Shown piece by piece: positions 19,945-41,389 of a stretch of DNA of 64,000 nucleotides (position 1 is its first letter; every line of letters starts with the position of its first letter). The position numbers and the translations under genes are program-made. The notes beneath the pieces are model-generated. The model made no database searches and was not told the origin of the DNA. It worked only from the letters and a program-made list of their open reading frames with translations. Source of the DNA: Ferrimonas lipolytica (lineage in GTDB: Bacteria; Pseudomonadota; Gammaproteobacteria; Enterobacterales; Shewanellaceae); the NCBI RefSeq assembly GCF_012295575.1, contig NZ_CP051180.1, forward strand, positions 868,001 to 932,000, written 5' to 3'.

Positions 19945-19968
19945 GCACCGTAATCACGGTGCTTTTTT
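19945..19968 (+). terminator. Intrinsic terminator of nadA
   Basis: GCACCGT / ACGGTGC stem, 4-nt loop, then six T. Repeat copy 2 begins 2 bp after the T-run. Confidence 0.93.
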
Positions 19969-19970
19969 GT

Positions 19971-20263
19971 GGCTGTGTACCAACTAAGTGTTGTTGTTTA
20001 CAATGTTGTTAACGCACCGGCTAGGCGAGTTTTGATACAAGGAGAAAGCACTGCCGTCGTTGATCTTCTGCCACATTGGAACAGTCCAGCGAAGCGTTTT
20101 GGATTGCGACCTAAGGCAAGGGGGGAGATTCCAAAGGGGCGAAGCAGCCCCCTAATGCATACAAGAATGTGCCGTCGCCACCGCGACATAACCCTTTAAG
20201 AGCACTGCAATCGGTGAAGCCGAAGGCTTAAGATAAACTTCAACAGCTAACTATGACCCAGCC
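19971..20263 (+). repeat. MITE-like repeat, copy 2
   Basis: 293 bp. Left tip GGCTGTGTACC, right tip ATGACCCAGCC. Flanks are TTTTTTGT (19963-19970) and TTTTTTAT (20264-20271), an 8-bp target duplication with one mismatch, made from the T-tract of the nadA terminator. Same orientation as copies 1, 3 and 6. Internal hairpins include GTCGC...GCGAC and AGCC-GAA-GGCT. Confidence 0.92.
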
Positions 20264-20282
20264 TTTTTTATAGGGTAATAAG

Positions 20283-21089
20283 ATGGATGACAGCGTAGTA
20301 ACCGCAGTTCAACAACGGCTTGTTAACCAATATCAGCGCATGCTGAGCCAAGTTGAGACTATTGCTAGCAATAATGATGTTGAGGCAGTTCATCGCTATC
20401 GAGTGAGCTTACGTAAGAGCCGCTGTTTATTGGCAATATTTGCTGATGAGCTGGCAAATACTCCCGCGGCAACGTTGGCAGCCAGCTTTAAGCAGCAAGC
20501 GCACGTGTCGAATGCTGTGCGCGATATTGACGTATTTATTGCGGCTGTCGACATCCCCATGATTATTGATTACCTATTGCAGCAGCGGCTGTTACTACAA
20601 CAACAATTACGACAACGGCTTGGTGATTTACAGCGGGAGCGGCAACTGTGTCTCAGCTGTTTGCTGTTGCCGTGGCCAACAACTGCAGTGACGTTATCTG
20701 CAGCGGTAGCAACTCAGTTGCAGCAATTACAACAGCGGAGCATAGCTGCAAGTAAGTTGGCGGTGTCGACCGGTAAAGATAAGCATTGGCACAAATTGCG
20801 TTTATTGATTAAAGCCCAGCGCTACTTAATTGAGTTGTGCCTAGATAACCATCACAGTGACGCGTCGCTATGGCAACAACGATTAGGCGAGTTTAATGAC
20901 AACTGTAATCAACTCCAGTTTTTGACTGACTTACCCCTTCAACCAAAAAGGTTGCAACGGCAGCTGAGAAAGTTAACGAAGAGGTTAAAGCAGCAAAAAA
21001 AACAACAAAAGCGCGAGTTGACGGTACTGGTTGAGCAGGAGTTGACTAAAAAAGATGCGTTCGGTTTAAAGTTGAAAAATAGCAGTTGA
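20283..21089 (+). CDS. CHAD domain protein
   Basis: 268 residues, all helical and strongly basic in its C-terminal part. The CHAD signature appears early: Val-His-Arg-Tyr-Arg-Val-Ser-Leu-Arg-Lys-Ser-Arg, then Arg-Asp-Ile-Asp-Val-Phe near residue 83. Conserved His and Arg/Lys of this fold bind polyphosphate. There is no CYTH or triphosphatase domain, so this is a stand-alone CHAD protein. The C-terminus is an Arg/Lys/Gln-rich helix. The tRNA-Ser promoter overlaps its stop codon. It starts 19 bp after repeat copy 2, which must therefore lie in or next to its promoter region. Role inferred: polyphosphate granule association. Confidence 0.82.
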   Translation: MDDSVVTAVQQRLVNQYQRMLSQVETIASNNDVEAVHRYRVSLRKSRCLLAIFADELANTPAATLAASFKQQAHVSNAVRDIDVFIAAVDIPMIIDYLLQQRLLLQQQLRQRLGDLQRERQLCLSCLLLPWPTTAVTLSAAVATQLQQLQQRSIAASKLAVSTGKDKHWHKLRLLIKAQRYLIELCLDNHHSDASLWQQRLGEFNDNCNQLQFLTDLPLQPKRLQRQLRKLTKRLKQQKKQQKRELTVLVEQELTKKDAFGLKLKNSS

Positions 21090-21113
21090 CGACAACCGAT
21101 GAACTCCCTAATA
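21085..21113 (+). promoter_or_regulatory. Promoter of tRNA-Ser
   Basis: TTGACG, 17-bp spacer, TAATAT, followed by a GC-rich discriminator (GCGCTTCCCG) typical of stringently controlled stable RNA promoters. The -35 overlaps the CHAD stop codon. Confidence 0.75.
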
Positions 21114-21162
21114 TGCGCTTCCCGTAGCGAGTGAGAACTCGATAAACATCGAACAATTTAAA

Positions 21163-21250
21163 GGTCAGGTGTCCGAGTGGCTGAAGGAGCACGCCTGGAA
21201 AGTGTGTATACGGCAACGTATCGAGAGTTCGAATCTCTCCCTGACCGCCA
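21163..21250 (+). tRNA. tRNA-Ser (GGA)
   Basis: 88 nt including encoded CCA. Acceptor stem GGTCAGG pairs with CCTGACC. Anticodon GGA lies in the loop of CCTGGAAAG. A long class II variable arm and the TTCGAAT T-loop are present. Very close in sequence to E. coli serW/serX. Confidence 0.97.
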
Positions 21251-21262
21251 TATAAACAACAA

Positions 21263-21295
21263 CGCCCCGCACGAAAGTGCGGGGCGTTTTTGTTT
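21263..21295 (+). terminator. Intrinsic terminator of tRNA-Ser
   Basis: CGCCCCGCAC-GAAA-GTGCGGGGCG stem-loop followed by TTTTTGTTT. Repeat copy 3 starts at the last base of this T-tract. Confidence 0.95.
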
Positions 21296-21594
21296 GGTTG
21301 TGTACCAATTAAGGGTTGTTCTTGCCAATGCTGTTAAAGCACCGGTTAGGCGAGCTTTGAAACAAGGGCAAAGCACTACCGCCGTTGCTCTTCTGCCGCA
21401 TTGGAGCAGTCCAGCGAAGCGTTTTGGAATGCGACCTAAGGCAAAGGGGATTCCAAACGGGGCGGAGCTTCCCCTAATGCATACAAGAATGTGCCGCCAA
21501 CGCGACATAACCCCTTAATAGTCTGCAACCGATAGAGCCGAAGGCTTGATATTAACTTCAACACTTAACCTCAACACTTAACTGTGACACAGCC
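21296..21594 (+). repeat. MITE-like repeat, copy 3
   Basis: 299 bp with a perfect 8-bp target duplication TTTTGTTT (21288-21295 and 21595-21602). Left tip GGTTGTGTACC (one change from the family GGCTGTGT), right tip GTGACACAGCC. Near the right end the segment TCAACACTTAAC is repeated, adding a few bases. Inserted into the T-tract of the tRNA-Ser terminator. Confidence 0.95.
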
Positions 21595-21735
21595 TTTTGT
21601 TTATATGGTCAGTGAAGATTTTGGTTCTAAACCTTAGTTCGCCATCGCCATCGCCATCGCCGTAGGCACTCATCTCTTCTAAGCGCTTGCTCGCTAACCG
21701 TGATGGTAAACGAGCAGTCTGTTGCTTCGCTGTGC

Positions 21736-23109
21736 TCAACAGCCCGATTTATTAAAGATCTTATCTGCCCACAGAGTCAGTCCCGAGGTTACGCTGCCGA
21801 AGTTATCGGCTGAAACCATTGGGATCTGATAGCGTTGCCATAGGTAATCCTTGATAAACGGCGCATTGGCGCTACCACCGGTGAGGAATAGCACGTCCGG
21901 TTTGCAACTGGATTGGGCGATCACGTCATCGATTAATACCGACATACGTTTCAGCAGTTGTTGGGCCGCTTCGGTGAAGTTGGCGCGGTCGACGACAGTA
22001 GCCAGTTCGGGCTCTAGGAAATCCAGTGCTACCTTGGCTTGCTCTAACTCACTCAAGGCGATTTTAGCGCGTTCTGCACAGGCACTAAGCTGGAAGGTCA
22101 TGTGCTGTTGTTGCAGAGTTAGGATCCGCATCAAGGTTGTTAGCTCTGGCTGGCGTTGCAGCTCCGACAGCATCGCTCTGGTGTCGTTGCGATAAAAACG
22201 TGTTTGATCTGAGATGTTGTTTACCGAAGCAGCGTCGATGAACGGCTTGTTGGGGATAGGGCGTCCCTTACCGTCTTTCAGTCGTGAGCCGAGAGTTGGC
22301 ATTAAACAGTTAAAGTTCAGTGCGATATCAAAGTCATTACCGCCGATCCGTTCGCCGCTGTAGCCCAATACCCATTCGTCGTGACGTTCACTTAAGTCGC
22401 TGCCCGCGGCCATCTGCAACATGGAGATATCCGAAGTACCACCACCGATATCCACTACCAATACGTTCTGCTGTTGCTGCAGCTGTTGTTGGTAGCTTAA
22501 ACCGGCGGCAATCGGCTCATACAGAAATTCAACTTGGTCAAAACCTGCGAATTTAGCGGCGCGAGTCAGTACTTCGGTGGCTTGGGTATTACTGCGGTGG
22601 CTATCGAGCCCCTGAAAATTAACCGGACGACCAATCACAACCTTCTTAATCGGTGCTAAACCCGTTTGTTCCGCTTGGTGACGCAGGTGCCACATGGTTG
22701 AAGCACAAATGTCTTCAAACATCTGCTGCTGCCGTGGGGTAATGCCACTGGAGCCGAGAAAGGATTTAGGGCTACGAACGTAGTAACAGTCCGCAGGATC
22801 AACTAGGTACTTGTCGAGAGCATCAACGCCGAAGGCCAATTGGTCATCGTAGCCATCAAGCTTGGCTTCACGCAGGGCATTAAGACTGGCACCTAGGTTA
22901 GGGCGGGCTTGCTGATATGGCTGCTCTAGCCCTTGGCTTTTAAGCTGTTGATATAGCCAACCAGAGATCACTTCTGGCTGCGGTGCGTAAAGGGTCGAAG
23001 GAAGGTAGTGGCCGTGTTGGGGCAGATTTACCAGTGTTGGTTGGTTATCTGTTATTACACCAAAGGCACAGTTAGATGTACCGAAATCAAAACCTGCAAT
23101 TGTACTCAT
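21736..23109 (-). CDS. yegD: Hsp70-family chaperone YegD
   Basis: 457-residue actin-like ATPase of the Hsp70 superfamily, without the C-terminal peptide-binding domain of DnaK. Seen: phosphate-1 loop Gly-Phe-Asp-Phe-Gly-Thr-Ser-Asn-Cys near residue 6, Val-Ile-Gly-Arg-Pro-Val-Asn-Phe, Tyr-Glu-Pro-Ile-Ala-Ala-Gly-Leu, phosphate-2 Val-Asp-Ile-Gly-Gly-Gly-Thr-Ser-Asp, and Leu-Thr-Gly-Gly-Ser-Ala. Length matches E. coli YegD (450). Clients unknown. Stands alone on the minus strand. Confidence 0.93.
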   Translation of the reverse strand: MSTIAGFDFGTSNCAFGVITDNQPTLVNLPQHGHYLPSTLYAPQPEVISGWLYQQLKSQGLEQPYQQARPNLGASLNALREAKLDGYDDQLAFGVDALDKYLVDPADCYYVRSPKSFLGSSGITPRQQQMFEDICASTMWHLRHQAEQTGLAPIKKVVIGRPVNFQGLDSHRSNTQATEVLTRAAKFAGFDQVEFLYEPIAAGLSYQQQLQQQQNVLVVDIGGGTSDISMLQMAAGSDLSERHDEWVLGYSGERIGGNDFDIALNFNCLMPTLGSRLKDGKGRPIPNKPFIDAASVNNISDQTRFYRNDTRAMLSELQRQPELTTLMRILTLQQQHMTFQLSACAERAKIALSELEQAKVALDFLEPELATVVDRANFTEAAQQLLKRMSVLIDDVIAQSSCKPDVLFLTGGSANAPFIKDYLWQRYQIPMVSADNFGSVTSGLTLWADKIFNKSGC

Positions 23110-23359
23110 CTATGCACTACCGTTTTCGAAAATGGTCAGCGAGGGTAGCGATCGCTCAGTGGATTTACAAGTGATTTTAGTGGCTAGTAGGGCAAGGTTT
23201 GCTAGCAACTATTGAAATTCTAACGCAGGTGATAACAGCACTAAAAATGGCTAACAAACTGATTATCAAGGATGAAGGTAAGTTTTTTCTAATCATTCAA
23301 ATAACTGTAACAATTGGCAGAGATAATCACTAGGCATCCTATGTGAATCAACCTCCTTG
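23110..23359 (+). other. Intergenic region, possible small RNA upstream of an orphan terminator
   Basis: Between the yegD start (minus) and the 105-residue gene end (minus) there is no plus-strand gene, yet a strong plus-strand terminator sits at 23360-23389. A GATAAT-like -10 lies near 23324. Just before the hairpin is the single-stranded motif AACCTCCTT, complementary to a Shine-Dalgarno sequence. A short plus-strand RNA ending at the terminator is possible. There is no homology basis. Confidence 0.35.
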
Positions 23360-23389
23360 TGCACGCAAACCTAAGCGTGCATTTTTTTT
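23360..23389 (+). terminator. Orphan intrinsic terminator, plus strand
   Basis: TGCACGC / GCGTGCA stem, 8-nt loop, then eight T on the plus strand. The T-run orientation does not suit the neighbouring minus-strand gene. Confidence 0.85.
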
Positions 23390-23401
23390 GCTGTTTTTTC
23401 G

Positions 23402-23719
23402 CTATCGGGGTAACCGCACCCGTTTTTGTTGTTTGAGTGCACACTTACATAGGTGTCCCTCTAATGCGGGGCAATTCTTACAGGGCTTGCCCTTATACGG
23501 CCGGGTCAGCACGATACCGTGGTGGGGAAAGTGATGGCGTGTACTGGTGGCTTTAGCCAGTCCTAAGTTCGAAATGAAGGTTGAAGCAAGTTGCTCGCAT
23601 TCCACTTGGGTTAAAGCAGTAAAGTCGGTTCCCTGCTTTAACTTATCTTTTATCTGTTGCTTCAGCGCCTTTTGCAGCATTTTAGCGGCTTGCTTATTGC
23701 CGCCTTTATCTTTCGCCAT
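23402..23719 (-). CDS. Small basic protein with Cys cluster, function unknown
   Basis: 105 residues. The N-terminal half is Lys/Gln-rich and helical (Lys-Gln-Ala-Ala-Lys-Met-Leu-Gln-Lys). The C-terminal part has Cys-Lys-Asn-Cys-Pro-Ala then His-Leu-Cys-Lys-Cys, four cysteines spaced like a small zinc or iron-sulfur knuckle, and ends with a basic tail. I do not recognise a named family. It starts with ATG and a GGGGG-type ribosome binding site, and sits between yegD and a penicillin-acylase gene on the same strand. Confidence 0.6.
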   Translation of the reverse strand: MAKDKGGNKQAAKMLQKALKQQIKDKLKQGTDFTALTQVECEQLASTFISNLGLAKATSTRHHFPHHGIVLTRPYKGKPCKNCPALEGHLCKCALKQQKRVRLPR

Positions 23720-23775
23720 AAAACCCCCAACGAATACAGCCTATGCCGATAGTAGCCGATTGGATCTATGAAAGC

Positions 23776-26088
23776 CTATTTGTTTGGCGACAAAATAAGT
23801 GCAGCACGAGTTGGTTGTGCAATGGTAACGGTGCGGTACTGTCCGTTCATGTAATCAATGGCTTGATCGGAGAAATGTTTCGAGTGTGATACCCCGCTTT
23901 GCCCTAATGGGCTGATAACGCGGGCGGTGAGCGGTGACGCCATGTCCACCAATCGACGAGTTGATGGGCCGAATGTCGCTTGCCGTTGCTCGTTTTGGTA
24001 CTGGTAAGAGATGTTATTTATGGCGCGTTTAGAACCATGGATCGGCATACTTGGGCCTTCAAATATCTGTCGCAGTAGGGGATTGGCCCCCATGGCGTGA
24101 CGATGGCGACTTTGTGCACTTTGTTGCCACTTGGGAATATCGGTACCTAGGCTGGATTCGGTTTGTAACCATGCTCGTCTAATGGCGTCTTGCTGGTTTT
24201 GTTGCGAGTATTGGTTGAGGTTGTTCCACCATGGTGAATTGGGGTTTTCCAACACTTGATATAGCATCTTGTCAATCAAGCTCTGGGTCACTAACACCTC
24301 AAAACGATCGCTACCGAGTTCGTCGGCAAAGATCTCTTCAAGTAGGTGGTTGTAGAAACTCTCAAATATGGTTGGTGCAATAAGATCTGCACTGTAAGTA
24401 CCATCCCACTGCTGTAATGCTTGATAGGCACTGCTACCGGTGTCGGTGACGGCAGCTGCGAGCATAGGCTTGAGCATCATTACTCGTAAGTTACGGCTGT
24501 CGTTCTGCAGCTGCTTAAACTCATCGAGATTCCATTGCTGTTGGCTCTCTAGTTGTTCTTGTAGCCACATCGGTCGGAACTTAGGGGCGTAGTAACCAGA
24601 GGCTTCAACTTGCTGCAATGGTTCTGAATATGGGTGGTTAGCGGAAAAAATAATGCCGGAGGTGGGATTAAGCTGTTTGGGATTGCTGGAGAAGTCGTAA
24701 TGGCCTTGGGGCAGGTTGTTGCGCTTGGAGCCGTCAATCATTACTGAGCCACTGATTCCCTCGGCACGCTTAAGGTATTTAGCCACCGCCCATTTGGCAA
24801 TGTTACCTTGATTGTCGGCATAGAGGAGGTTAACCCCTGGCGACCAGATATTTTCTAGGCTCTGTTCGGTTTCCTCTAATGAGGTGGCGTTGACCAATTG
24901 ATAGAGGCCATGCAGTGGCTGATTCCCTGGTTGGGTAAAGGTCCAATATAGTGCAGTGGGCTGATCTAACCCGAGCGCTTGATCGACGCGAGGCCCAAAT
25001 GCCGTTACCTGGCGTTGGTAGTGGAGGCTTTCGCCCCCCTTTATTTCGATTAGCTCATCAATCAGGTCCATTTGCGCGACCTCATCGTCTATCTGGTAGC
25101 CATTGTCGGTTATGGTCAGTTGGTAGAGATCGGCGTCGTCGTTCAATAGCATGGTTAACCCCCATACCCGCTGAGGGGTTTGCCCTAATAGTGGGATGGG
25201 TAAACCGGGCAAGTAGTGACCGTATAGCACCCGCTCAGGAGTATGGATCTGCGCCTCATACCACACTTGTGGGCTGGAGTAGCTGATGTGAGGATCATTA
25301 GCAAACAACGGTGCCCCACTTTCGCTGCGTTCAGCGCTGACGACCCAGCCGTTTGAACCTTGCATCTGGCCCATTGGTAACAGCGAGTCTAACTCTAACT
25401 CCAACCAATCTTGGCTAACTAACTCGATACCATCGAGTTCTGCGGCCGCCCAGTGGTCTTGTAAGGCATGCAGATAAGGCTCATCTAAGTTTTGGCGCAA
25501 GTCAGTCATTAGCGGGTCTTGCTTGAAGGCCGTGGTGAAACTGTGGGCCATATAACTCAGTGTGGCGAATACATCGACTGGCTGGAATGGTTCGGGGGTT
25601 GCGGCCAACAGTTGATACTCTAGCGGAGTGGGTAGGTTTTCAATTGCATTGTTGATGCCATCAACATAGGAGTAAACCCACAGCTGTAATTTAGGATCTT
25701 GGGAAAGTAATGCCTGAGCTTGCTGTTCACTCCATTGACGCATACCAAGGGCGCGGAATAGTTGGTCTGTCTTTACTGCTCGCTCACCAAATAAGGCGGC
25801 AAGTTCGCCCTTACCAACCCGACGTAATAGATCCATTTGAAATAGACGCTCTTTGGCATGCAGCCAACCAAGGGCAACCATGGCATCGGCATCGTTGTTA
25901 GCGTAGAGGGATGGCACTCCATAATCGTCAAATGAGACGGCAATTTTGTTTTGCAGTGCTGGTACAGACTCGATGCCGTGATAGGTCGGGCTGGTTCTCC
26001 ACAGTTGCAGTGCGACAAAGGCAGTTACTATTGTGACAATAGCGAGAACAACGATAAAGACCGCTTTTATTGCGCGACTGAAAAACAT
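23776..26088 (-). CDS. Penicillin acylase family N-terminal nucleophile hydrolase
   Basis: About 770 residues from ATG 26088, chosen because AAGGA lies 5 bp upstream; an in-frame ATG at 26142 has no such site. An N-terminal membrane anchor or uncleaved signal (about residues 8-28) exports it. The alpha chain region has Asp-Asp-Tyr-Gly-Val-Pro and Leu-Gly-Trp-Leu-His-Ala-Lys-Glu-Arg-Leu-Phe-Gln-Met. The autoprocessing site is Gly-Ser-Asn-Gly-Trp, whose Ser would become the nucleophile of the beta chain, followed by Asn-Asp-Pro-His. Near the C-terminus is His-Gly-Ser-Lys-Arg-Ala. Family members cleave amides of penicillins, N-acyl-homoserine lactones or cyclic lipopeptides; the substrate cannot be told from sequence. 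Confidence 0.88.
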   Translation of the reverse strand: MFFSRAIKAVFIVVLAIVTIVTAFVALQLWRTSPTYHGIESVPALQNKIAVSFDDYGVPSLYANNDADAMVALGWLHAKERLFQMDLLRRVGKGELAALFGERAVKTDQLFRALGMRQWSEQQAQALLSQDPKLQLWVYSYVDGINNAIENLPTPLEYQLLAATPEPFQPVDVFATLSYMAHSFTTAFKQDPLMTDLRQNLDEPYLHALQDHWAAAELDGIELVSQDWLELELDSLLPMGQMQGSNGWVVSAERSESGAPLFANDPHISYSSPQVWYEAQIHTPERVLYGHYLPGLPIPLLGQTPQRVWGLTMLLNDDADLYQLTITDNGYQIDDEVAQMDLIDELIEIKGGESLHYQRQVTAFGPRVDQALGLDQPTALYWTFTQPGNQPLHGLYQLVNATSLEETEQSLENIWSPGVNLLYADNQGNIAKWAVAKYLKRAEGISGSVMIDGSKRNNLPQGHYDFSSNPKQLNPTSGIIFSANHPYSEPLQQVEASGYYAPKFRPMWLQEQLESQQQWNLDEFKQLQNDSRNLRVMMLKPMLAAAVTDTGSSAYQALQQWDGTYSADLIAPTIFESFYNHLLEEIFADELGSDRFEVLVTQSLIDKMLYQVLENPNSPWWNNLNQYSQQNQQDAIRRAWLQTESSLGTDIPKWQQSAQSRHRHAMGANPLLRQIFEGPSMPIHGSKRAINNISYQYQNEQRQATFGPSTRRLVDMASPLTARVISPLGQSGVSHSKHFSDQAIDYMNGQYRTVTIAQPTRAALILSPNK

Positions 26089-26368
26089 ACCCATCCTTGG
26101 TGTAAGTACTAACGCCTGTGACTTTATTGATACCATCTGCATTGCAGAAGTAAAGCACTAAGTTACTGTTTTTATGTTTTTTTTGAATTTTGGTATGGGC
26201 ATTGTCTGTAGCGTTAATCGGCACTTTTCTTGCTGAGTGCAGTGAGCGACGATAAAGGTATTTGGTTTTTGTCTGCTGGACAATGGATGTGGTGGGAGGA
26301 GGAGGTTGTGATCAGCGTAAGCCTAACGGCTACGCTGACGATATTGGAAGCTAACGGTGATGGTGTGG

Positions 26369-26842
26369 TTAAACAACCTGATTTTTAATCTGAGGCTGCA
26401 ATTTTGCCTGAAGCCATAAGCCCGATGATTTCATCATGGCACCAAACAAAACACCTACCAGCAGCGATGGGACAACCATTTGCCAGTTGCCATTGGAGGC
26501 AAAGGTCGCGCAACACCCTAAAAAGGTGCCAGGTATGTAATTAAGCCACTCTTTTTTCGCTTGGATACACATCAGCATCGACACAATGCCAGTAATGATG
26601 TAGCCGATAACCTCGATGTTACTGACGGTGGAAAGCTGGATAATAACCATGCCCCAAAACACACCGCTTAGATTGGTTAGCATGCTGATGGCGACTGCCT
26701 TTTTGCCTTCAGCTGGCGCAGCAAAATAGGTTGAGCAGCCCATAAATCCTGCCCAGGTTAGCAGACCAAGGGCGACCGAGAGCCATCCCCACAGTGCCGA
26801 GAGAATACCAGTAGTAATTGAGATAGCGACCAATGCAGACAT
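26369..26842 (-). CDS. DUF1097 inner-membrane protein (YcdZ-like)
   Basis: 157 residues with four to five transmembrane helices and few charged residues. Features of DUF1097: Trp-Ala-Gly-Phe-Met-Gly-Cys-Ser-Thr-Tyr-Phe-Ala near residue 31, Ser-Gly-Val-Phe-Trp-Gly, and Gly-Thr-Phe-Leu-Gly-Cys-Cys-Ala-Thr-Phe-Ala in the last third. E. coli YcdZ is of this family; its role is not known. The gene is alone. The upstream region has a CRP-like half-site pair with 7-bp rather than 6-bp spacing. Confidence 0.82.
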   Translation of the reverse strand: MSALVAISITTGILSALWGWLSVALGLLTWAGFMGCSTYFAAPAEGKKAVAISMLTNLSGVFWGMVIIQLSTVSNIEVIGYIITGIVSMLMCIQAKKEWLNYIPGTFLGCCATFASNGNWQMVVPSLLVGVLFGAMMKSSGLWLQAKLQPQIKNQVV

Positions 26843-27109
26843 GATTCGTTTTCACCAAGCTGAGTAAACCAGCCAGAATATTAGCCGCTTAAGTTGAAGA
26901 TGTTGTGACGATTGATCACACTTTTGTGGTTAATTTTCAACATTGAGCTCAAGTTAAACCGAAGATTAACCTTATTGGTTGTTCTTAATGAGTTTTATGA
27001 AATTAAATAATGTCGAATGTTTTTCAATTACAGCGCGGGTCTTGGGCGTGTCAGCGAATGCAGATGTGACTAACAGGCAGAATATTGGCTATGGACTAGC
27101 TAAGAGCGA
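26843..27109. other. Spacer between the DUF1097 gene and the tRNA-Pro terminator
   Basis: Holds the likely promoter of the DUF1097 gene, with a TGTGA-N7-TCACA motif near 26904. No supported gene was seen; a short plus-strand frame here lacks a ribosome binding site and runs into the tRNA terminator. Confidence 0.5.
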
Positions 27110-27142
27110 CCAAGCCCACAACGGAGGCCGTTGTGGGCTTGG
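27110..27142 (-). terminator. Terminator-like inverted repeat after tRNA-Pro
   Basis: CCAAGCCCACAACGG / CCGTTGTGGGCTTGG perfect 15-bp stem with a 3-nt loop, directly downstream of tRNA-Pro on the minus strand. Confidence 0.8.
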
Positions 27143-27151
27143 TGCTGAAGG

Positions 27152-27228
27152 TGGTCGGCCAGAGAGGACTTGAACCTCCGACCCTCGCTCCCCCAGAGCG
27201 ATGCGCTACCAGACTGCGCTACTGGCCG
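27152..27228 (-). tRNA. tRNA-Pro (GGG)
   Basis: 77 nt including CCA. Acceptor CGGCCAG pairs with CTGGCCG. D-arm AGCGCAGTCTGGTAGCGC, anticodon stem TCGCT/AGCGA with loop CTGGGGG giving anticodon GGG, T-arm GTCGG-AGGTTCAAGTC. Close to E. coli proL. Confidence 0.95.
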
Positions 27229-27315
27229 ATACCATTTAAATATCTCGCAGCGGCGTTATAAAATCAATAGTTTTCAACTCTAACTGATTGATGTTTATCC
27301 AGTTGATGCGTGCTG

Positions 27316-32128: not shown

Positions 32129-32146
32129 CCAGCGCCAGAGCGAACC

Positions 32147-32254: not shown

Positions 32255-32578
32255 ATGGATAAGATAACCCTTACCAATATCGAAACCATTCCCGGAAAAA
32301 CCATCGTTAGCCACCTTGGCTTAGTTCAGGGTAATACAGTGCGCGCCAAACATGTTGGTCGTGATTTTATGGCGGGGCTTAAGAATCTCGTTGGTGGCGA
32401 ATTGGTTGGTTATACCGAACTGCTGCAAGAATCCCGAGAGCAAGCGGTCGAACGGATGACCGAACAAGCTATCGCCATTGGAGCTAATGCGGTAATCAAT
32501 GTTCGCTTCTCAACGTCATCAGTGACCTCCGGTGCGGCGGAATTGTTTGCCTACGGTACTGCGGTTGTAGTGGAGTAA
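32255..32578 (+). CDS. YbjQ-family (DUF74) protein 1
   Basis: 107 residues from ATG 32255, equal to E. coli YbjQ; an in-frame ATG at 32219 would add 12 residues. Core features: Gly-Lys-Thr-Ile-Val, Arg-Asp-Phe-Met-Ala-Gly-Leu-Lys-Asn-Leu-Val-Gly-Gly-Glu near residue 37, Gly-Ala-Asn-Ala-Val and Tyr-Gly-Thr-Ala-Val-Val. YbjQ proteins form small oligomers; a metal-binding role has been suggested by domain naming but not proven. It is the first gene of a three-gene operon with a second YbjQ protein and an M48 protease. Confidence 0.88.
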   Translation: MDKITLTNIETIPGKTIVSHLGLVQGNTVRAKHVGRDFMAGLKNLVGGELVGYTELLQESREQAVERMTEQAIAIGANAVINVRFSTSSVTSGAAELFAYGTAVVVE

Positions 32579-32581
32579 CCA

Positions 32582-33809: not shown

Positions 33810-33825
33810 TTGAGCTTATAAAATC

Positions 33826-33853
33826 AAAAAACCAGCCTTACGGCTGGTTTTTT
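33826..33853. terminator. Bidirectional terminator, M48 gene and DUF3622 gene
   Basis: AAAAAACCAGCC / GGCTGGTTTTTT stem with a short loop; A and T runs on both sides suit the convergent genes. Confidence 0.93.
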
Positions 33854-33871
33854 GTTGATATTGAGGAGTGC

Positions 33872-34249
33872 TTACTCTTCGCTATCAAAGTCGCTGAAAT
33901 CGAACTCTTCGTCTTCAGCAACGTCATCGGCGTCAAACTCGTCACCTAAGGCTTCGGCACGTAAGGCGCGTTTTTCAGCGGCTTTTTGTTCCGCCTTTTC
34001 AGCTTGGCGAGCAGCAACGGCTTCACGCTCAATACGGGTTTTAGCGTGACGGTCGTTACGCTCTGCTTGGTTCTTTTGGAACTCTTGCAGCATCTCTTCA
34101 CCCCAAGCTTGTGCTTCAGCTTCAGTGGCAAAACGACCCTTCTTTTTAGACACCATGGTCTTGCGGTTGGACACTTTACGGATGATTTTTGCGGTCCACT
34201 TATCTTCGGTTTGTTCTACCGACAGTGAGAATTTTTTGCTTTGAGCCAT
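33872..34249 (-). CDS. DUF3622 protein, highly charged
   Basis: 125 residues. The N-terminal 50 residues form a small beta-rich segment (Trp-Thr-Ala-Lys-Ile-Ile-Arg-Lys-Val, Lys-Lys-Gly-Arg-Phe-Ala-Thr-Glu). An Ala/Lys/Arg/Glu helix (about residues 60-98) follows, and the tail is very acidic (Asp/Glu/Phe repeats to the end). The N-terminal part matches DUF3622, found in Shewanella and Vibrio relatives. Probably cytoplasmic; function unknown. Single gene ending in a shared terminator. Confidence 0.78.
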   Translation of the reverse strand: MAQSKKFSLSVEQTEDKWTAKIIRKVSNRKTMVSKKKGRFATEAEAQAWGEEMLQEFQKNQAERNDRHAKTRIEREAVAARQAEKAEQKAAEKRALRAEALGDEFDADDVAEDEEFDFSDFDSEE

Positions 34250-34408
34250 GGTGACAGGTTCCTAGGGGGGTTATCCAAGTTCAGATTCTCCGGCAGCACA
34301 GAACACAGTCAGTACTGAGAACCGGGGCGCACAGTATACGCCTCTTTTTATTTTATGCTCGCCTTTTTACTGAGCAATGCCGTTAACTTCGGTGGCAACC
34401 GGGCCAGT

Positions 34409-34789
34409 TTAGAAGTATTTGATGTTGGTGGCCGACTGGTTGAGTGAACTGTCGCTATAGGTTTCTGTCACCATAGCGGCATGTTCCATCGCTTGCATCA
34501 GCCCTAGTACGGCAGCTACGCCTAAGCCATGCAACCAGAATGTTGGACCACTACTGAGTTGTAGGCTAATCACTATGACCAAAACAACTTGGGATGACCC
34601 AAATAGAATAGCTAAGTGTTCTTTCGAAGCAGAGACGGCGATGGCAGTAAGAATTGGCAACAGCAGCAAACCATAGCCGAGGGGGCCCATATCTGCGCCG
34701 GTTTGGCTTGTCGGAGTTAATACCAATGGATGGCTCCAACAAAAAGCGGCAATGATGGCGATAAACGAGGCAACTGTTTCGCGTCCCAT
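34409..34789 (-). CDS. Small membrane protein, unknown
   Basis: 126 residues with three to four hydrophobic helices (about 5-20, 36-52, 60-77 and 85-100) and a polar C-terminal tail. No named family recognised. ATG at 34789 is preceded by AGGTTATT, a weak ribosome binding site. It lies between the DUF3622 gene and fadE on the same strand but is separated from both by terminators or long gaps, so it is probably transcribed alone. Confidence 0.6.
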   Translation of the reverse strand: MGRETVASFIAIIAAFCWSHPLVLTPTSQTGADMGPLGYGLLLLPILTAIAVSASKEHLAILFGSSQVVLVIVISLQLSSGPTFWLHGLGVAAVLGLMQAMEHAAMVTETYSDSSLNQSATNIKYF

Positions 34790-34875
34790 AATAACCTCAC
34801 GTCTTTTGTGCTTATAGTTATTATAGCTACTGGTGTTGAAATCACTGGGAGTTTTAGCGTGGTGGGAGAACTAAC

Positions 34876-34905
34876 TAAAAAGAAAGGGAGCCTAACGGCT
34901 CCCTT
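34876..34905 (-). terminator. Intrinsic terminator of fadE
   Basis: Read on the minus strand: AAGGGAGCC-GTTA-GGCTCCC stem then a TTTCTTTTT tail, 20 bp past the fadE stop. Confidence 0.9.
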
Positions 34906-34924
34906 GTTAGCTTATCTTATAAAG

Positions 34925-37369
34925 TTAAGCGGCTTTGTCGTTTTGCTGGGCGATAACAGGGTTGGATTTCAACTCGTCGGAGTCAAAGTCATCAACGTTG
35001 ATGGTCGCCAGACGACCGGCTTCCGCTTCATTAAGAAGCTGTGCTTCTTCAGCGGTGATAGCGCCAAGCTCAAGGCCTTGAGCAGCAATACGGTCGAGGA
35101 ACATAAACGGCAGTTTCTTACCGGCAGCTTTACATACTTTGTCGTACAGTGGCTCGGCTTTAAGGATCAAGCCCAAGGTATGCTCCAGCTTGCCGAGCGC
35201 ATTTCTATCGTGGTTTGCTAACCACTGGCCAGCAATCAGGCGGTCACGAGTGGCACTTGGGGTTTGCAAAATACGCGCAACTTGGTGGTCATTTTTGTCA
35301 GACGGGCGTTTAATTGGGCGTCCGAATGGGAACAGCAGGAACTTCAGTAGGCCACCAAACATTGGGAAGTTTTCTAACAACTCAATCTGTGCGGTTTGCA
35401 GTTTGTACAGTGAATCCTCAACACCCCAACGCAGCAGTGGTAGGTCATCAGCCATACGACCATCGTCGTTATAACGCTTCAACGCGCCAGAGGTCAGGAA
35501 CAGTTGGCTGAGTAAGTCACCTAGACGAGCAGAGGTACGCTCTTTGCGCTTCAAGTCGCCGCCAAGCAGTGCCATTGCGATATCCGATAGTAGCGCTAGG
35601 TTGGCACTGAAACGGTTCATCTGCTGGTAGTAGCGCTTGGTTTCGTCTTGGTATGGGCTGTTGCTCAAACGGCCACCGGTTAGGCCAAGCCATACACTGC
35701 GAACTAAGTTAGTAAATACGAAACCAACGTGGCCCCAAATGGCTTTGTCGAAGTCAGCTAAGCCCTTTTGCTTATCTTCATCAAAGGCCGCTTGCATCTC
35801 GTTTAAGATGTATGGGTGGCATCGGATTGCGCCCTGACCATAGATGATCATGGAACGAGTTAGGATGTTGGCACCCTCTACGGTGATCGCAATTGGCGCA
35901 CCTTGGTAGCCACGACCCAAGTAGTTGTTTGGCCCTAAACAGACCCCTTTACCGCCGTGGATATCCATGGCGTCAATGATGCATTTCTGCATCCGGTCGG
36001 TCAGGTGCATCTTGACGATAGCGGAGATAACCGATGGTTTTTCACCAAGGTTTAAACCGGTTGTTGTTAAGGTGGACACCGCGTCCATTAGGTAAGCGTT
36101 ACCGCCAATCCGCGCTAATGGCTCTTCAATGCCTTCCATCTTACCGATTGGTAGTTTGAACTGACGGCGGATACGAGAGTAGGCTCCGGTTGCGCCAGCA
36201 ACGGTCTTCATGCCACCAGCAGCGCTTGATGGCAGGGTGATACCACGACCAACCGACAAACATTCAACCAGCATGCGCCAGCCTTGGCCTGCCATCTCTT
36301 GGCCACCAATAATGTAATCCAGTGGGACAAACACCTGGTTACCACGGGTCGGGCCGTTTTGGAACATGGTGTTCAACGGGAAGTGGCGGCGGCCAATCTC
36401 AACACCTTGCATATCGGTCGGGATCAACGCACAGGTAATGCCAATCTCTTTCTTGTCGCCAATCAAGCCGTCTGGATCGCGTAGTTTGAAAGCCAAACCA
36501 AGTACGGTAGATACCGGGGCTAGGGTAATGTAGCGCTTGTTCCAAGTTAGCTTCATACCCAGAACTTCTTTACCTTCCCATTCGCCCTTACAGACGATGC
36601 CGTAATCAGGGATAGAGCCGGCATCGGAACCCGCTTCAGGGCTGGTTAGAGCGAAACATGGGATCTCTTGACCAATAGCTAAGCGTGGCAGGTAGTAATT
36701 CTTTTGCTCTTCAGTGCCGTAATGTTGCAGCAATTCACCTGGACCCAATGAGTTAGGCACGCCAACAGTTGAGGAGAGTACTGAGCTGTGACCAGCCAGT
36801 TTCTGCAAAATCTGCGATTGGGCGTATGGGGTAAACTCTAAGCCGCCATACTGCTTCTTGATGATCATGGCAAAGAACTTGTTGTCTTTCAGGTACTGCC
36901 ATACATCTTGAGGCAGATCCGCCAGAGTGTGGGTAACCTCAAAGTCATCCACCATTGCCATCACTTCTTCAACAGGACCGTCGATGAAAGCCTGCTCTTC
37001 AGCCGTTAGGGTCGGCTTAGGGTAGTTGTGTAAGGTTTTCCAGTCTGGTGCACCGGAGAAGAGTTCTGAATCCCACCAGGTTGTACCGGCTTCAATGGCG
37101 TCTTTTTCGGTTTCAGACATTTCCGGCATGATGCCTTGGTAGGCTTTCAACATTGGCTTGGTTAGGTATTGTTTACGCACCGAGTCAACATTCACAGGAA
37201 TGGCGATAATGGCAAAGATTACCCACGGGATGATACCAACATGGCCCAAGGCGGTGCCTGCGGCGAGGAATAGCGCGGCGGCAACAGTAAATTGAGTTAA
37301 CGAACGGCGTTGGTAGATCAACGCGCCCAGCACAATTATGCTGGTTAGGCTCCAAATTAGGGTTATCAC
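34925..37369 (-). CDS. fadE: Acyl-CoA dehydrogenase FadE
   Basis: 814 residues, the large FadE type (E. coli FadE also 814). Two N-terminal transmembrane helices (about 1-18 and 30-60) anchor it to the inner membrane. The dehydrogenase core includes Lys-Lys-Gln-Tyr-Gly-Gly-Leu near residue 170, [10 protein letters not shown] (FAD/substrate), Thr-Trp-Asn-Lys-Arg-Tyr-Ile-Thr, Gly-Gly-Lys-Gly-Val-Cys and Glu-Gly-Ala-Asn-Ile-Leu-Thr-Arg. It catalyses the first oxidation step of fatty-acid beta-oxidation. It is preceded by a FadR-type operator and a second palindrome, and is divergent from yafJ as in related bacteria. Confidence 0.96.
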
Positions 37370-37442
37370 GGTGTTACTCCTTATCTTGGCGTCAAATCAC
37401 ATGGGTAATGTAATTTCGTGTGATGAGTCACAGTTTATGTGG

Positions 37443-37453
37443 TGGTCTGACCT
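37443..37453. promoter_or_regulatory. FadR-type operator upstream of fadE
   Basis: TGGTCTGACCT matches the FadR core TGGTCNGACC, about 75-85 bp upstream of the fadE start. The same core, inverted, is found upstream of fadL. Confidence 0.7.
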
Positions 37454-37472
37454 CTGTCACGAAAAAATTAAA

Positions 37473-37482
37473 CAAACGTTTG
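37473..37482. promoter_or_regulatory. Palindrome CAAACGTTTG near fadE/yafJ
   Basis: Perfect 10-bp palindrome about 105 bp upstream of fadE and 107 bp upstream of yafJ. It resembles the CAAAC/GTTTG half-sites reported for PsrA-type regulators of fatty-acid genes, but without the usual spacer, so the assignment is tentative. Confidence 0.35.
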
Positions 37483-37588
37483 AGGATTGTTATGAAAATG
37501 AGAGCGGAGTTCGCTTGGGACGGGGCTCGCAAGGGGTTATGCTACCTTGTGTTAAATATGCAATTTGTTGAGTAAAGGCGTTTGATTA

Positions 37589-38368
37589 ATGTGTGAACTG
37601 CTGGCAATGAGTGCCAATGTGCCAACCGATATCGTGTTTAGTTTTACAGGGTTAGTCGAACGTGGTGGTAAGACTGGGCCACACCGAGATGGCTGGGGTA
37701 TTACCTTTTATGACGGACCAGGGAGTCGCACCTTTAAAGACAGCGATCCCAGTTGTCGCAGCGAAGTCGCGAGCATGCTTAAAAGCTATCCGATTAAATC
37801 GAAAACGGTGATTAGCCATATTCGTCAAGCCAACCGAGGCAAAGTCAGTCTAGAGAATACCCACCCCTTTGGCCGAGAGCTGTGGGGGCGTAACTGGGCC
37901 TTTGCCCACAATGGGCAGCTTTCCGGTTATAAGGAGGTGTTGAAGTGTGAGCGCTTCATGCCGGTCGGCAGTACCGACAGCGAGCTGGCGTTTTGTTATC
38001 TGATGGATCGCTTAGCGGCAAACTATGCCGATAAAAAGCCCAGCAGAGAGCAAGCGTTCCGCTTTATGGCCAAAGAGGGTAAAAAACTACAGCAGTATGG
38101 GGTGTTCAACATGTTGCTGTCGGATGGCCCATACCTGCTAGCACTGTGCGGCAATAATCTTAATTGGATTACCCGTAAGGCGCCGTTTGGAGAGGCTAAG
38201 TTGATCGATACCGAAATGGTGATCGACTTTAAACAAGAAACCACACCTAACGATGTGGTTACTGTGATTGCTACACGGCCATTAACCAGTAATGAATCTT
38301 GGACCAAGATGGCAGCGGGAGAGTGGATTCTGTTTCGCAATGGCGTCAAGATCGCCAGCGGTAAATAG
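37589..38368 (+). CDS. yafJ: Class II glutamine amidotransferase YafJ
   Basis: 259 residues. Cys2 directly after the initiator Met is the N-terminal nucleophile (Met-Cys-Glu-Leu-Leu). Further Ntn glutaminase motifs: His-Arg-Asp-Gly-Trp-Gly, Ser-His-Ile-Arg-Gln-Ala, Ala-His-Asn-Gly-Gln-Leu and Gly-Ser-Thr-Asp-Ser-Glu. Length and order agree with E. coli YafJ (255). It releases ammonia from glutamine, but the partner or acceptor substrate is unknown. Divergent from fadE, an arrangement shared with E. coli relatives. Confidence 0.93.
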   Translation: MCELLAMSANVPTDIVFSFTGLVERGGKTGPHRDGWGITFYDGPGSRTFKDSDPSCRSEVASMLKSYPIKSKTVISHIRQANRGKVSLENTHPFGRELWGRNWAFAHNGQLSGYKEVLKCERFMPVGSTDSELAFCYLMDRLAANYADKKPSREQAFRFMAKEGKKLQQYGVFNMLLSDGPYLLALCGNNLNWITRKAPFGEAKLIDTEMVIDFKQETTPNDVVTVIATRPLTSNESWTKMAAGEWILFRNGVKIASGK

Positions 38369-38381
38369 TACTCGTGTGAGG

Positions 38382-38402
38382 GAGTGAGCTTCGGCTCACT
38401 CT
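38382..38402. terminator. Hairpin between convergent yafJ and the DUF3108 gene
   Basis: GAGTGAGC-TTC-GGCTCACTC stem overlapping the 3' end of the minus-strand gene. T-runs are short, so it may be a weak bidirectional terminator. Confidence 0.6.
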
Positions 38403-39094
38403 TGGCCGAACGTTACTTTCTGCAGCTCCATACCCGCTTTTAACTCCCCATCCTCATAGTGCTGTATCTGTGCAATCACGTAGTTATGATCTTTAGCGAG
38501 CCAAGCAAAAGTCTGTTTAGGGCTGTCAGCTTTGCGGATCCGCGCAACCTTAACGGTATTAAGGGTACCAAATGGGGTTGTTAGCTGTTCTTCACCAACG
38601 ACGTGATAGATGATATTACGCTGCTTGGTTTTTTGAATGTAGTGGTAATTCATCTGCGTTTTGCCCGCTGCAACATCGAGCCGTAATTGCATTAGGTACA
38701 GAATGTTATCGTAGATAGGCAATTTATAGGGGAAGTCAGCGGCACGATCTTTATAGCGGGCATGGATCTGGCCGGTAACTGAATCGAATTCCACTTCGGC
38801 ACTAAAATCGGGGCCGGAGCCAGAACGCTCCATGAGATAGCGTTTGGGAATAAGGGTATCGCCATTAACATCGAAAAGGCTTTGTTCGCTGCGGATATCA
38901 CTGAGCAAAAGCCAGCCCACATCGCTGACGTACCCCATCTGAAATTGATTAGTCGCGGTTTTTTGTAATGTAATTTTACCGCCACCAAGGCTGCTGTCGC
39001 CGTGGGTTACATCGTAATTTGCCTCAAATGGCGTTAATGGTGCCGCCATTAGCTTGCAGCAAAATAGTAGACTTAATGCAGCGATAAGACGCAT
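38396..39094 (-). CDS. DUF3108 periplasmic protein
   Basis: 232 residues with a Sec signal peptide (to about residue 17, ending Lys-Leu-Met-Ala-Ala). The body is beta-rich: Phe-Glu-Ala-Asn-Tyr-Asp-Val near residue 24, Gly-Gly-Gly-Lys-Ile-Thr-Leu, Tyr-Leu-Met-Glu-Arg-Ser-Gly-Ser-Gly-Pro, Asp-Asn-Ile-Leu-Tyr-Leu-Met-Gln-Leu-Arg and Phe-Gly-Thr-Leu-Asn-Thr-Val-Lys-Val. These are typical of DUF3108, a periplasmic family of unknown function. Lies 10 bp downstream of the alkyltransferase-like gene on the same strand, so the two are probably cotranscribed. Confidence 0.86.
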   Translation of the reverse strand: MRLIAALSLLFCCKLMAAPLTPFEANYDVTHGDSSLGGGKITLQKTATNQFQMGYVSDVGWLLLSDIRSEQSLFDVNGDTLIPKRYLMERSGSGPDFSAEVEFDSVTGQIHARYKDRAADFPYKLPIYDNILYLMQLRLDVAAGKTQMNYHYIQKTKQRNIIYHVVGEEQLTTPFGTLNTVKVARIRKADSPKQTFAWLAKDHNYVIAQIQHYEDGELKAGMELQKVTFGQE

Positions 39095-39104
39095 GTGCTT
39101 TCCT

Positions 39105-39443
39105 TTAGTGTTGCAGTGTCCACAGCAACTCAGCTAAATCTGGTTGCCAACGGAAACGTTTCATATCGACCCGACCGTTGATTACTTCGACCCCTTCGTT
39201 GCGCAGTAATTCCATCTGTTTGCGATAGTTATCGCTTTCCTTAGCAATGCTTATCTGGCCAGATGTAGCAAGAACGCGGTGCCACGGTAATGCCATTTCA
39301 GTTGGCGCTATTTTCAGTGCGCGTGCCGCGAGGCGGTGGCGCCGTGGTAAACCTGCTAGATCAGCGAGTTGACCATAACTGACGACTTTTCCTGTCGGTA
39401 CAAGCTGAAGTGTCGACCATATTTTCTTGATGGCTATATTCAT
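39105..39443 (-). CDS. Alkyltransferase-like protein (ATL)
   Basis: 112 residues, the MGMT DNA-binding domain only: Val-Pro-Thr-Gly-Lys-Val-Val-Ser-Tyr-Gly-Gln-Leu-Ala near residue 17 and Leu-Pro-Trp-His-Arg-Val-Leu near 52. The catalytic Pro-Cys-His-Arg of true O6-methylguanine methyltransferases is Pro-Trp-His-Arg here, the mark of ATL proteins, which bind O6-alkylguanine and hand it to nucleotide excision repair. E. coli YbaZ is the closest known relative. Cotranscribed with a DUF3108 gene. Confidence 0.9.
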   Translation of the reverse strand: MNIAIKKIWSTLQLVPTGKVVSYGQLADLAGLPRRHRLAARALKIAPTEMALPWHRVLATSGQISIAKESDNYRKQMELLRNEGVEVINGRVDMKRFRWQPDLAELLWTLQH

Positions 39444-40058
39444 TTTGTAAGATTTTATGCTTTCTTAGCAATAGCTTACCAGTCTTTTAGAGTGAACACG
39501 ATGGTTGCTGCTGAGCGTTCGCCAATTGAATTACAATGTAATCGCGCCAGTTGATTGGATTGTACTGATGCCAGTGAATTTTGTTCAAGCGTACGCCAGC
39601 TAAGGTTGATGGCGCTTGGGCGGGATGCGTAGTTCAAGTGGTAAGAGCAGTAAACAACTGTAACCCTTTTTTACCTTTACTTCAGAGGTCAGACCACGTT
39701 AATAACTTTAAAAACAATTATTTAGGTTTTTAGTGGGGGCAAGTTTAAGGCGTGCAGTTTGATCTGCTACGGCAGTTGGTGCCATTAAGAGTACGCGTGT
39801 ACCCATTTGTTTTAAGATAAACTTTTGTAATTTAAGGGTTTATTTTCAATTTTGACGAAATGTGAATTTATTTAGAGTACATTGGAAATGATGCCGTTGT
39901 GCTTACTTCGCTATATGCAGCACTGGTTTGAAGTATTATCCTGCTGGGTTGCTTCGAATTGAAGTTTTGTATCGTTTTGGTTTGAGTAATTGCACTATTT
40001 TTCTTTGTCCCTATTATGCGCGCTAATTACATACGCAGTAACGGATATTAGATTAAGT
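39444..40058. other. Regulatory spacer upstream of fadL, about 615 bp
   Basis: No gene seen. It contains a FadR-type core at 39686-39696, an AT-rich segment around 39700-39890 suited to a promoter, and the long 5' region of fadL. No repeat copy. Confidence 0.6.
39686..39696. promoter_or_regulatory. FadR-type operator upstream of fadL
   Basis: AGGTCAGACCA, the exact inverse of the fadE site TGGTCTGACCT, about 360-370 bp upstream of the fadL start. Flanking bases AG and CG are also shared by the two sites. Confidence 0.65.
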
Positions 40059-41333
40059 ATGAAAGTTCGTGTTATCGCCGCCCTAGTTATGGGCGCACTG
40101 GGCGCACAAGCCCACGCCGCTGGTTTTCAATTGGCAGAATCTTCAGCAACTGGCCTTGGTCGTGCTTTTGCTGGTGAAGCAGCAATTGCGGATAACGCCT
40201 CTTCTCAAGCACGCAACAGCGCATTGTTGATGGAGCTTGAAGGTCAGCAGATATCTTTTGGTTTTATCTATGTTGATCCTAACTTAGATATGGAAGGAAC
40301 CACTGGCTTAACCATGGGTGATGCACGTATCCCTACCGCCGATGCAGATGCTGATGATTTTGCTCCATCTGCTTTGATCCCGAACTTTTACTACAGCAAC
40401 CGCCTAAACGATAAGTGGGCTGTTGGCATTTCGTTAAACTCTGCCCATGGTATGGCTACTGAGCTTCCAGCGGACCACGCTGCTGCTATTTTTGGTTCTG
40501 ATACCTCTATCACCACCGTTGAGTTGGCTCCAGCAGTGGCTTACCAGCTGACTGATACGGTTGCCATTGGTGCAGCACTTCGCGTGGTTTACGGTGAAGG
40601 TGAAGTTAGCGCAACCGTTCCTGGTTGGGCTGCACAAACCTTAGGCTTGGAAGCGGGTCAAAAGATCAAGTCGGTTGAAGGTGACGGCGTTGATTACGGT
40701 TACCAGTTGGGTGCTACATGGGCCCCAACAGCCAATAATCGCATTGGTTTGAGCTTCCGCTCTGAAGTCGAGCTGACCCTAGAGGGTGAAGCTGAAGGCG
40801 CTGGTTTCGGTTTGGCTCCAGGCCAGAAAAAAGATGGCGAGCTAGTGTTGCCGTTACCTGCCACCGCCGAGTTGGCTGGCTTGCATCAGTTAACCGATAA
40901 GTTTGCGATGCACGCCTCGATAAACTGGACCGATTGGAGTGCGTTTGAATCACTGGAAGTTGATTTCGATGACTACTCTGATCACCTTAAAGATGAGAAC
41001 TTCAAAGACAACTGGCGTTATGCCGTAGGTGCAACCTATCAAGTTGATGACAAGATGATCCTGCGTGCTGGTGTTGCTCTTGATAAAGGCGCGGTTTCTG
41101 ATGGCAACCGTACTCTAAGCATCCCAGATTCCGATCGTTTGTGGTTCTCTTTTGGTAGCGGTTACGTTCTAAGTGAGTCTTTGACGCTTGATCTGGCCTT
41201 CACCTACATCAAAGCAGATGACGCCAGTATCGATGAAACGGTTGCTCTTACTGAGAACGTTGGTGTTAATTACCAAGGTGAGCTGGGCGGTGACGTTTGG
41301 TTGGCTGGTGCGCAGCTAAGCTACCGCTTCTAA
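40059..41333 (+). CDS. fadL: Long-chain fatty acid outer-membrane transporter FadL
   Basis: 424 residues from ATG 40059, with a signal peptide ending Ala-His-Ala-Ala at about residue 21. The mature N-terminus Gly-Phe-Gln-Leu-Ala-Glu-Ser-Ser-Ala-Thr-Gly-Leu-Gly-Arg-Ala-Phe-Ala-Gly-Glu-Ala is the FadL/OmpP1 hatch signature, followed by an Asn-Pro-like segment in diverged form (Asn-Ser-Ala-Leu). The rest is a beta-barrel with alternating hydrophobic strands ending in Tyr-Arg-Phe. It imports long-chain fatty acids, which fits the nearby fadE and the shared FadR operators. Confidence 0.95.
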   Translation: MKVRVIAALVMGALGAQAHAAGFQLAESSATGLGRAFAGEAAIADNASSQARNSALLMELEGQQISFGFIYVDPNLDMEGTTGLTMGDARIPTADADADDFAPSALIPNFYYSNRLNDKWAVGISLNSAHGMATELPADHAAAIFGSDTSITTVELAPAVAYQLTDTVAIGAALRVVYGEGEVSATVPGWAAQTLGLEAGQKIKSVEGDGVDYGYQLGATWAPTANNRIGLSFRSEVELTLEGEAEGAGFGLAPGQKKDGELVLPLPATAELAGLHQLTDKFAMHASINWTDWSAFESLEVDFDDYSDHLKDENFKDNWRYAVGATYQVDDKMILRAGVALDKGAVSDGNRTLSIPDSDRLWFSFGSGYVLSESLTLDLAFTYIKADDASIDETVALTENVGVNYQGELGGDVWLAGAQLSYRF

Positions 41334-41353
41334 GTCTTAAGCAAGAGATAATA

Positions 41354-41389
41354 AGCCCCTGCAGCCTTTGGTTGCAGGGGCTTTTTGTT
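41354..41389 (+). terminator. Intrinsic terminator of fadL
   Basis: AGCCCCTGCA / TGCAGGGGCT stem, 9-nt loop, then TTTTTGTT. The tandem repeat array begins at the end of this T-tract. Confidence 0.95.

Follow-up and report, generated by a model that had tools for sequence, protein, structure and literature searches.

Intrinsic-terminator T-tracts as preferred insertion sites of a MITE with IS1595-family ends in Ferrimonas lipolytica

Bacterial mobile elements directed to hairpins or to terminators are already known. IS1272/TnSha1, of the IS1182 family of insertion sequences (ISs), targets hairpins in either orientation, several of them terminators, by a blunt cut in the stem that deletes part of it and leaves no target-site duplication (TSD) (PMC4923244), and group IIC introns use intrinsic terminators as insertion sites (PMC4424553). 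The IS1595 family (groups ISPna2, ISSod11, IS1016 and others) is characterized by an NF033547 transposase with an N-terminal zinc-binding domain, by GG ends and by 8-bp AT-rich TSDs (PMC8101967); its member ISEc69 produced AT-rich 8-bp duplications, with 23 mapped insertions all in genes (PMC7835479). Among short repeats, the pneumococcal BOX and RUP have ends that resemble those of an IS, and SPRITE, also of pneumococcus, is itself terminator-like, landing in a terminator not being described in the available part of the source (PMC3049150). Here we analyze a non-coding miniature inverted-repeat transposable element (MITE) of Ferrimonas lipolytica and its insertion sites, beginning with a stretch of 64,000 nucleotides (the window; positions 868001-932000 of the single 4,133,133-base contig of the genome) and extending to other parts of this genome and to related ones.

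The elements and their proposed mobilizer share with the IS1595 family the transposase type, the zinc-binding domain, the GG ends and the 8-bp AT-rich TSDs, and differ from it in that the terminator T-tract is the main target. They are like IS1272 in being found at hairpins and terminators; in contrast to the blunt stem deletion without TSD, the stem is left intact here and the T-tract outside it is duplicated over 8 bp. Group IIC introns are retroelements, and no group II intron was detected in the window at the Rfam gathering threshold, which only a tRNA reached. New here is a terminator preference linked to a clade of the IS1595 family; our searches of open-licence papers brought up no account of terminators being targeted by this family, an absence that is weak evidence.

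MITE insertions at intrinsic terminators

Three insertions in the window, behind nadA, tRNA-Ser and fadL, are located at the T-tract of an intrinsic terminator (Table 1). Hairpins and elements are all present where an earlier note on this DNA had placed them. Its statement that the T-tract is itself the 8-bp duplication holds at the three sites, with one mismatch in the right copy at nadA that had escaped mention; the fadL insertion, taken by the note for one element, is an inverted array of three copies. Two further copies, 1 and 5, had been described as lying in AT-rich DNA without a hairpin. This is correct for copy 1, the duplication of which is 7 bp long, whereas the target of 'copy 5' is unreadable because its left end is missing and it has no TSD. 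After insertion, the hairpin and eight tract bases stand on one side only of the element, and the other copy of the tract is without a hairpin.

The MITE is ~292 bp long (292-position model) and has imperfect inverted ends and 8-bp TSDs; its copies in the window are overlapped by short open reading frames (ORFs) only, with no transposase gene among them. The end pattern (up to 3 mismatches) matched the genome 429 times, compared with 83 matches for a reversed control, which leaves ~350 ends above control. Within 1.0 Mb we identified 125 MITE stretches, 95 of them with both ends; setting aside the 30 stretches without an end and 14 two-ended ones without an acceptable TSD or flank yielded 81 insertions with a TSD (up to 2 mismatches).

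A hairpin of -8 kcal/mol or stronger adjoins 47 of these 81 insertions. The corresponding proportion is 24% for 2025 intergenic control 8-mers that were matched in composition and differed by at most one mismatch from an observed TSD, 21% for 2025 coding 8-mers chosen in the same way and 17% for 800 random intergenic positions. A comparison with AT-rich 8-mers, as the earlier note had proposed, thus came out in favour of the preference that it claimed. The excess resides in the TSDs that are A/T-tracts (hairpin at 40/46; control 29%), and mixed TSDs show little of it (7/35; control 17%).

Because some loci of the 1.0-Mb set had been picked by element similarity, we added two sets of evenly spaced, non-overlapping blocks of 864 and 800 kb, together 1.66 Mb or 40% of the genome. 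Genes were called, with a crude ORF caller, on sequence from which the element had been excised. The second sample contained 54 stretches, of which 14 without an end and 7 without an acceptable TSD or flank were dropped; 11 of the remaining 33 insertions were already in the set of 81. In this sample a hairpin of -10 kcal/mol or stronger was found at 19 of the 33 insertions, namely at 17/20 tract TSDs and 2/13 mixed TSDs. The two samples together comprise 74 insertions (72 scored for hairpins; 57 intergenic ones entered a regression, see below), and such a strong hairpin adjoins 38 of the 72. Intergenic T-tracts next to a hairpin of this strength were occupied in 17/184 cases in the first sample and 12/185 in the second, those without one in 5/784 and 5/644, and T-tracts in called ORFs in 2/3258 and 2/2905. 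By location, 63 of the 74 insertions are intergenic, 5 lie across an ORF edge and 6 within a called ORF; 4 of these last are at least 20 nt inside, one of the four being the tRNA-Ser site, which falls under a spurious ORF. The terminator preference is therefore real and repeated, and it reaches beyond the window. It is also, as had been proposed, strong without being absolute and goes beyond T-richness.

Empty sites, which the note had suggested looking for, were found at orthologous terminators in genomes of the same genus. In one of these, G010, no element separates the nadA terminator from the next gene, which follows directly, and TTTTTGTT, the exact TSD sequence, stands uninterrupted at the fadL terminator; this comparison covered nadA and fadL, the tRNA-Ser end being outside the locus examined. 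Uninterrupted terminators are also present in other same-genus genomes after nadA (e.g. L253, L260, L261 and L263), after tRNA-Ser (L253, L258, L260, L261 and L263) and after fadL or its relative (L266-L276). At five further same-genus loci (L254-L257 and L262), a tRNA-Ser copy is immediately preceded by partial copies of the 5' part of tRNA-Ser, as might be left by an integration event.

An IS1595-family clade as candidate mobilizer

The MITE-bearing genome contains a decayed IS1595-family IS (L101/L230) of 1029 bp, with ends that match the MITE, an 8-bp TSD with one mismatch, a PF12762 match of 28.4 bits and stops in its reading frame, as well as a shorter remnant. The right end of the MITE is identical to the left end of the decayed IS at 21/23 bases; its left end matches that IS more weakly (17/23). 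Compared with IS1595-family ISs more generally, the MITE ends share up to 21 of 23 bases. Judged by these ends, an IS1595 transposase probably moved the MITE copies.

An intact 1023-bp IS of this family occurs in G008, of the same genus, where it is inserted in CTTTTTTG and CAAAAAAG tracts with adjoining hairpins of -15.3 and -16.7 kcal/mol (four contig-end copies read as two sites; L201 and L209 were taken to be the insertions L213 and L215 viewed from the opposite contig end). Scores of 185 bits for NF033547 (cutoff 75) and 42.9 bits for PF12762 (cutoff 27) establish that its product has the IS1595 transposase domain. The N-terminal zinc-binding domain was recognized by NF050000 in this transposase (45.5 bits; cutoff 28) and just missed the cutoff in that of G169 (26.9 bits), and the Pfam model PF12760 scored 21 bits, below its cutoff of 25.4. 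The proposed mobilizer ISs have ends beginning with GG and 8-bp TSDs, as is characteristic of the IS1595 family. A sequence search for solved structures returned none. Searches for relatives matched 35 of 394 genomes sampled from the order (E≤1e-20) and, in another genus, 13 of 37 genomes (E≤1e-80), and these yielded further resolved ISs; in a class-wide sample just 1 of 369 genomes matched (E≤1e-60). On the samples drawn, the clade thus seems to be concentrated within this order.

The 14 ISs sited at hairpins all fall into a single clade (support 100/99) of a 43-row transposase tree. A strong hairpin adjoins 14 of the 17 resolved insertions in this clade and none of the 15 resolved rows outside it; these rows are not independent, 11 of the 15 outside being one IS in genome G024 and 13 of the 17 clade ISs coming from one genus. 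Short ORFs kept the decayed IS (L230) and L240, neither of which is at a hairpin, out of the tree; the inside count would be 14/19 if both belonged to the clade. Loci dropped from the count of resolved insertions were L223 for insufficient flank, L193 and L200, which fall outside the length filter and have no hairpin, and many others without resolvable ends. Since the preference is tied to one clade and near relatives are without it, the determinants of target choice can be tested by comparing them.

The IS of G024 (L211, L214, L217-L220 and L323-L326) is a different member of the family, with identical 24-bp ends and a palindromic target, roughly ACTGT-N8-ACAGT, at the majority of the 11 copies resolved.

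In the sister species G010, a related element was resolved in 13 cases, 12 of them beside a hairpin; stricter parsing gave 11 of 11. Loci were obtained for 30 of the 35 listed ends: 13 were used, one duplicated another, and 16, many of them located at contig edges, could not be resolved. This element (L369-L392) is mostly 490-620 bp long and has very uniform ends (22/35 exact); it is apparently younger than the MITE of the present genome.

Sequence preference, hairpin and loss from genes

The non-terminator sites display a symmetric pattern, with G or C two bases beyond each end of an AT-rich octamer. A sequence score trained solely on 34 such sites also predicts which terminators are occupied (odds 1.7 per bit), and G or C at +2 is present in 29/45 occupied and 61/170 unoccupied terminators (p 7e-4). 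These observations, together with two clade ISs (L228 and L290) that occupy GC-preceded tracts without a hairpin, raise the possibility that the transposase reads the pattern alone, terminators matching it by happenstance and the hairpin being irrelevant. The hairpin nevertheless retains an effect at equal score and tract class. With the score fixed, regression gave odds of 3.2 (1.8-5.8) for an A/T-tract and 2.5 (1.3-4.5) for a hairpin, a result that holds for this score, which may miss a longer-range preference. At intergenic positions scoring at least 3, occupancy was 22/349 (63 per 1000) with tract and hairpin, 7/458 (15 per 1000) with the tract only, 5/362 (14 per 1000) with the hairpin only and 15/2542 (6 per 1000) with neither. 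GC-preceded intergenic T-tracts of both samples were occupied in 29/313 cases with a hairpin compared with 7/378 without. Some training sites were also test sites, an overlap that should inflate the rate without a hairpin and is hence conservative for the hairpin effect. The sequence preference is large; an effect of the hairpin is probable, of modest size and perhaps a proxy. Target choice by sequence alone is a possible, if somewhat doubtful, account.

A different explanation for the distribution is that the element inserts into any AT-rich 8-mer and that nearly all copies are lost except in the safe DNA behind genes. Loss from genes does matter: among positions scoring at least 3, 9 insertions were found at 20338 positions in called ORFs and 49 at 3711 intergenic ones, and the genic insertions of ISEc69 (PMC7835479) fit the same view. 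The position of the insertions relative to the terminator speaks against loss as the whole cause. At intergenic terminators of both samples, 29 insertions start at -2 to +3 of the T-run and 6 at +10 to +99, with 1757 and 4428 AT-rich 8-mer starts available, respectively (p 3e-11); one of the downstream insertions of the first sample lies at an opposite-strand terminator. Equally intergenic DNA 10-99 nt downstream is thus about twelve times less occupied per AT-rich start. This six-base register rules out survival bias as a sufficient cause. Moreover, A/T-tracts without a hairpin are occupied 4 to 14 times less than those with one, and IS1595-family relatives outside the clade are found without hairpins. 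The earlier description of terminators as neutral landing places is consequently insufficient on its own, given the downstream sparsity, the predictive sequence score and the restriction to one clade; we regard survival without target choice as quite unlikely.

Two other readings invoke the hairpin in different ways. The transposase could be attracted to RNA polymerase paused at a terminator, or to the open bubble there, as the joint preference for hairpin and tract and the highest rate at the strongest predicted hairpins would allow. Yet the orientation of the element shows no clear bias, be it with respect to the terminator (same in 16 and opposite in 29 of 45 cases; first sample, 8 and 12) or to replication (37 vs 37), and about half of the sites are without a strong hairpin; coupling to transcription therefore seems unlikely to us. 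Alternatively, the element could resemble group IIC introns or IS1272 in targeting a hairpin of single-stranded or cruciform DNA, again in keeping with the highest rate at the strongest hairpins. Against this stand the 8-bp TSDs, which imply staggered cuts in duplex DNA outside an intact stem, and the even orientation of the element relative to the replication strand, and we judge it quite improbable. Replication direction was assigned from the GC skew of the sampled blocks, which changes sign on the contig (G000:C1) at about 1.44 Mb and 3.5 Mb, suggesting the terminus and the origin; the difference between hit terminators (13 leading, 5 lagging) and unhit ones (92 and 78) was not significant (p 0.21), with minus-strand positions coarsely taken as the first base of the block plus 5 kb.

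Downstream sparsity, the symmetric sequence preference and the clade restriction together suggest that the transposase selects its targets and that copies in genes are purged afterwards. In the explanation that we consider quite probable, the MITEs would be mobilized by a DDE transposase of the IS1595-family clade with a preference for AT-rich 8-bp cores flanked, two bases beyond either end, by G or C. Intrinsic terminators would be its best targets, the core there being a T-tract that immediately follows a GC-rich hairpin on its 3' side. An 8-bp staggered cut across the tract would duplicate it, so that the hairpin keeps its eight Ts, and as insertions in genes would mostly be lost, those at terminators would accumulate. 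The hairpin, or its effect on the DNA, may be sensed by the transposase rather than merely correlated with the target. Termination presumably survives the insertion, which probably does the host little harm.

Several observations weigh against this explanation. As to the hairpin, structures were called by folding and not mapped; 34/72 insertions have no strong hairpin; the regression shows no significant interaction between tract and hairpin (p 0.26); and among first-sample sites of the highest scores, those with (1/10) and without (2/22) a hairpin do not differ in occupancy. Occupancy from the strongest to the weakest hairpin energies was 9/75, 9/153, 3/117, 5/91 and 3/371, with one bin out of order, and in convergent intergenic regions, where there is no promoter to damage, the hairpin effect is just borderline (9/328 vs 6/600, p 0.056), a point in favour of survival alone. 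As to the mobilizer, searches of the MITE-bearing genome found no intact IS1595 transposase, its decayed IS is not sited at a terminator, nor is L240, and 3 of the 17 resolved clade ISs are not at hairpins.

A further proposal, finely balanced and falling a little short of probable, is that this clade of DDE transposases has evolved recognition of the composite of hairpin and T-tract; this would have built a safe harbour into the transposon, with the terminator kept formally whole, and would have arisen independently of group IIC introns and IS1272. Safe-harbour targeting, if true, would explain how a compact genome carries hundreds of transposon copies, and T-tracts that flank repeats in genomes of this kind could be duplicated target sites.

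Features of the window and MITE arrays

Table 1. Insertion sites and MITE stretches in the window (window positions)
Feature	Positions	Strand	Remarks
MITE copy 1	241..531	+	AT-rich target, 7-bp TTAATTA duplication, no hairpin
nadA intrinsic terminator hairpin	19945..19962	+	folding, -12.8 kcal/mol
nadA T-tract, left TSD TTTTTTGT	19963..19970	+	right copy 20264-20271, TTTTTTAT, 1 mismatch
MITE copy 2 (nadA site)	19971..20263	+	
tRNA-Ser(GGA)	21163..21250	+	
tRNA-Ser terminator hairpin	21263..21286	+	folding, -25.1 kcal/mol
tRNA-Ser T-tract, TSD TTTTGTTT	21288..21295	+	right copy 21595-21602, identical
MITE copy 3 (tRNA-Ser site)	21296..21594	+	
fadL terminator hairpin	41354..41382	+	read from sequence; not energy-scored (array has no per-copy TSD)
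fadL T-tract, TSD TTTTTGTT	41382..41389	+	right copy 42300-42307
fadL insertion, tandem array of 3 MITE copies	41390..42299	-	copies 41390-41699, 41708-41999, 42008-42299; orientation opposite to copies 2 and 3
Truncated MITE stretch	54710..54940	-	model positions 1-232
Left-truncated MITE stretch ('copy 5')	58916..59159 (about)	+	model positions 50-292, no TSD

The array at fadL has a 300-bp period, with AAATAAAA at its inner junctions and TTTTTGTT at its outer flanks. It could have originated from a circular element with one foreign 8-bp flank that recombined into a resident copy. A second array of different shape is located elsewhere in the genome (L070, about 8216-8755; G000:C1:1028216-1028755), where three truncated MITE stretches with the left-end half in common lie in tandem.

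Towards the end of the window, a 237-bp segment is present in two copies of 99% identity (59202-59438 and 62642-62878) with ~3.2 kb of other ORFs between them. Since the minus-strand ORF at 62633-63265 contains one of the copies, the ~3.2-kb stretch seems to have been inserted where that gene ends.

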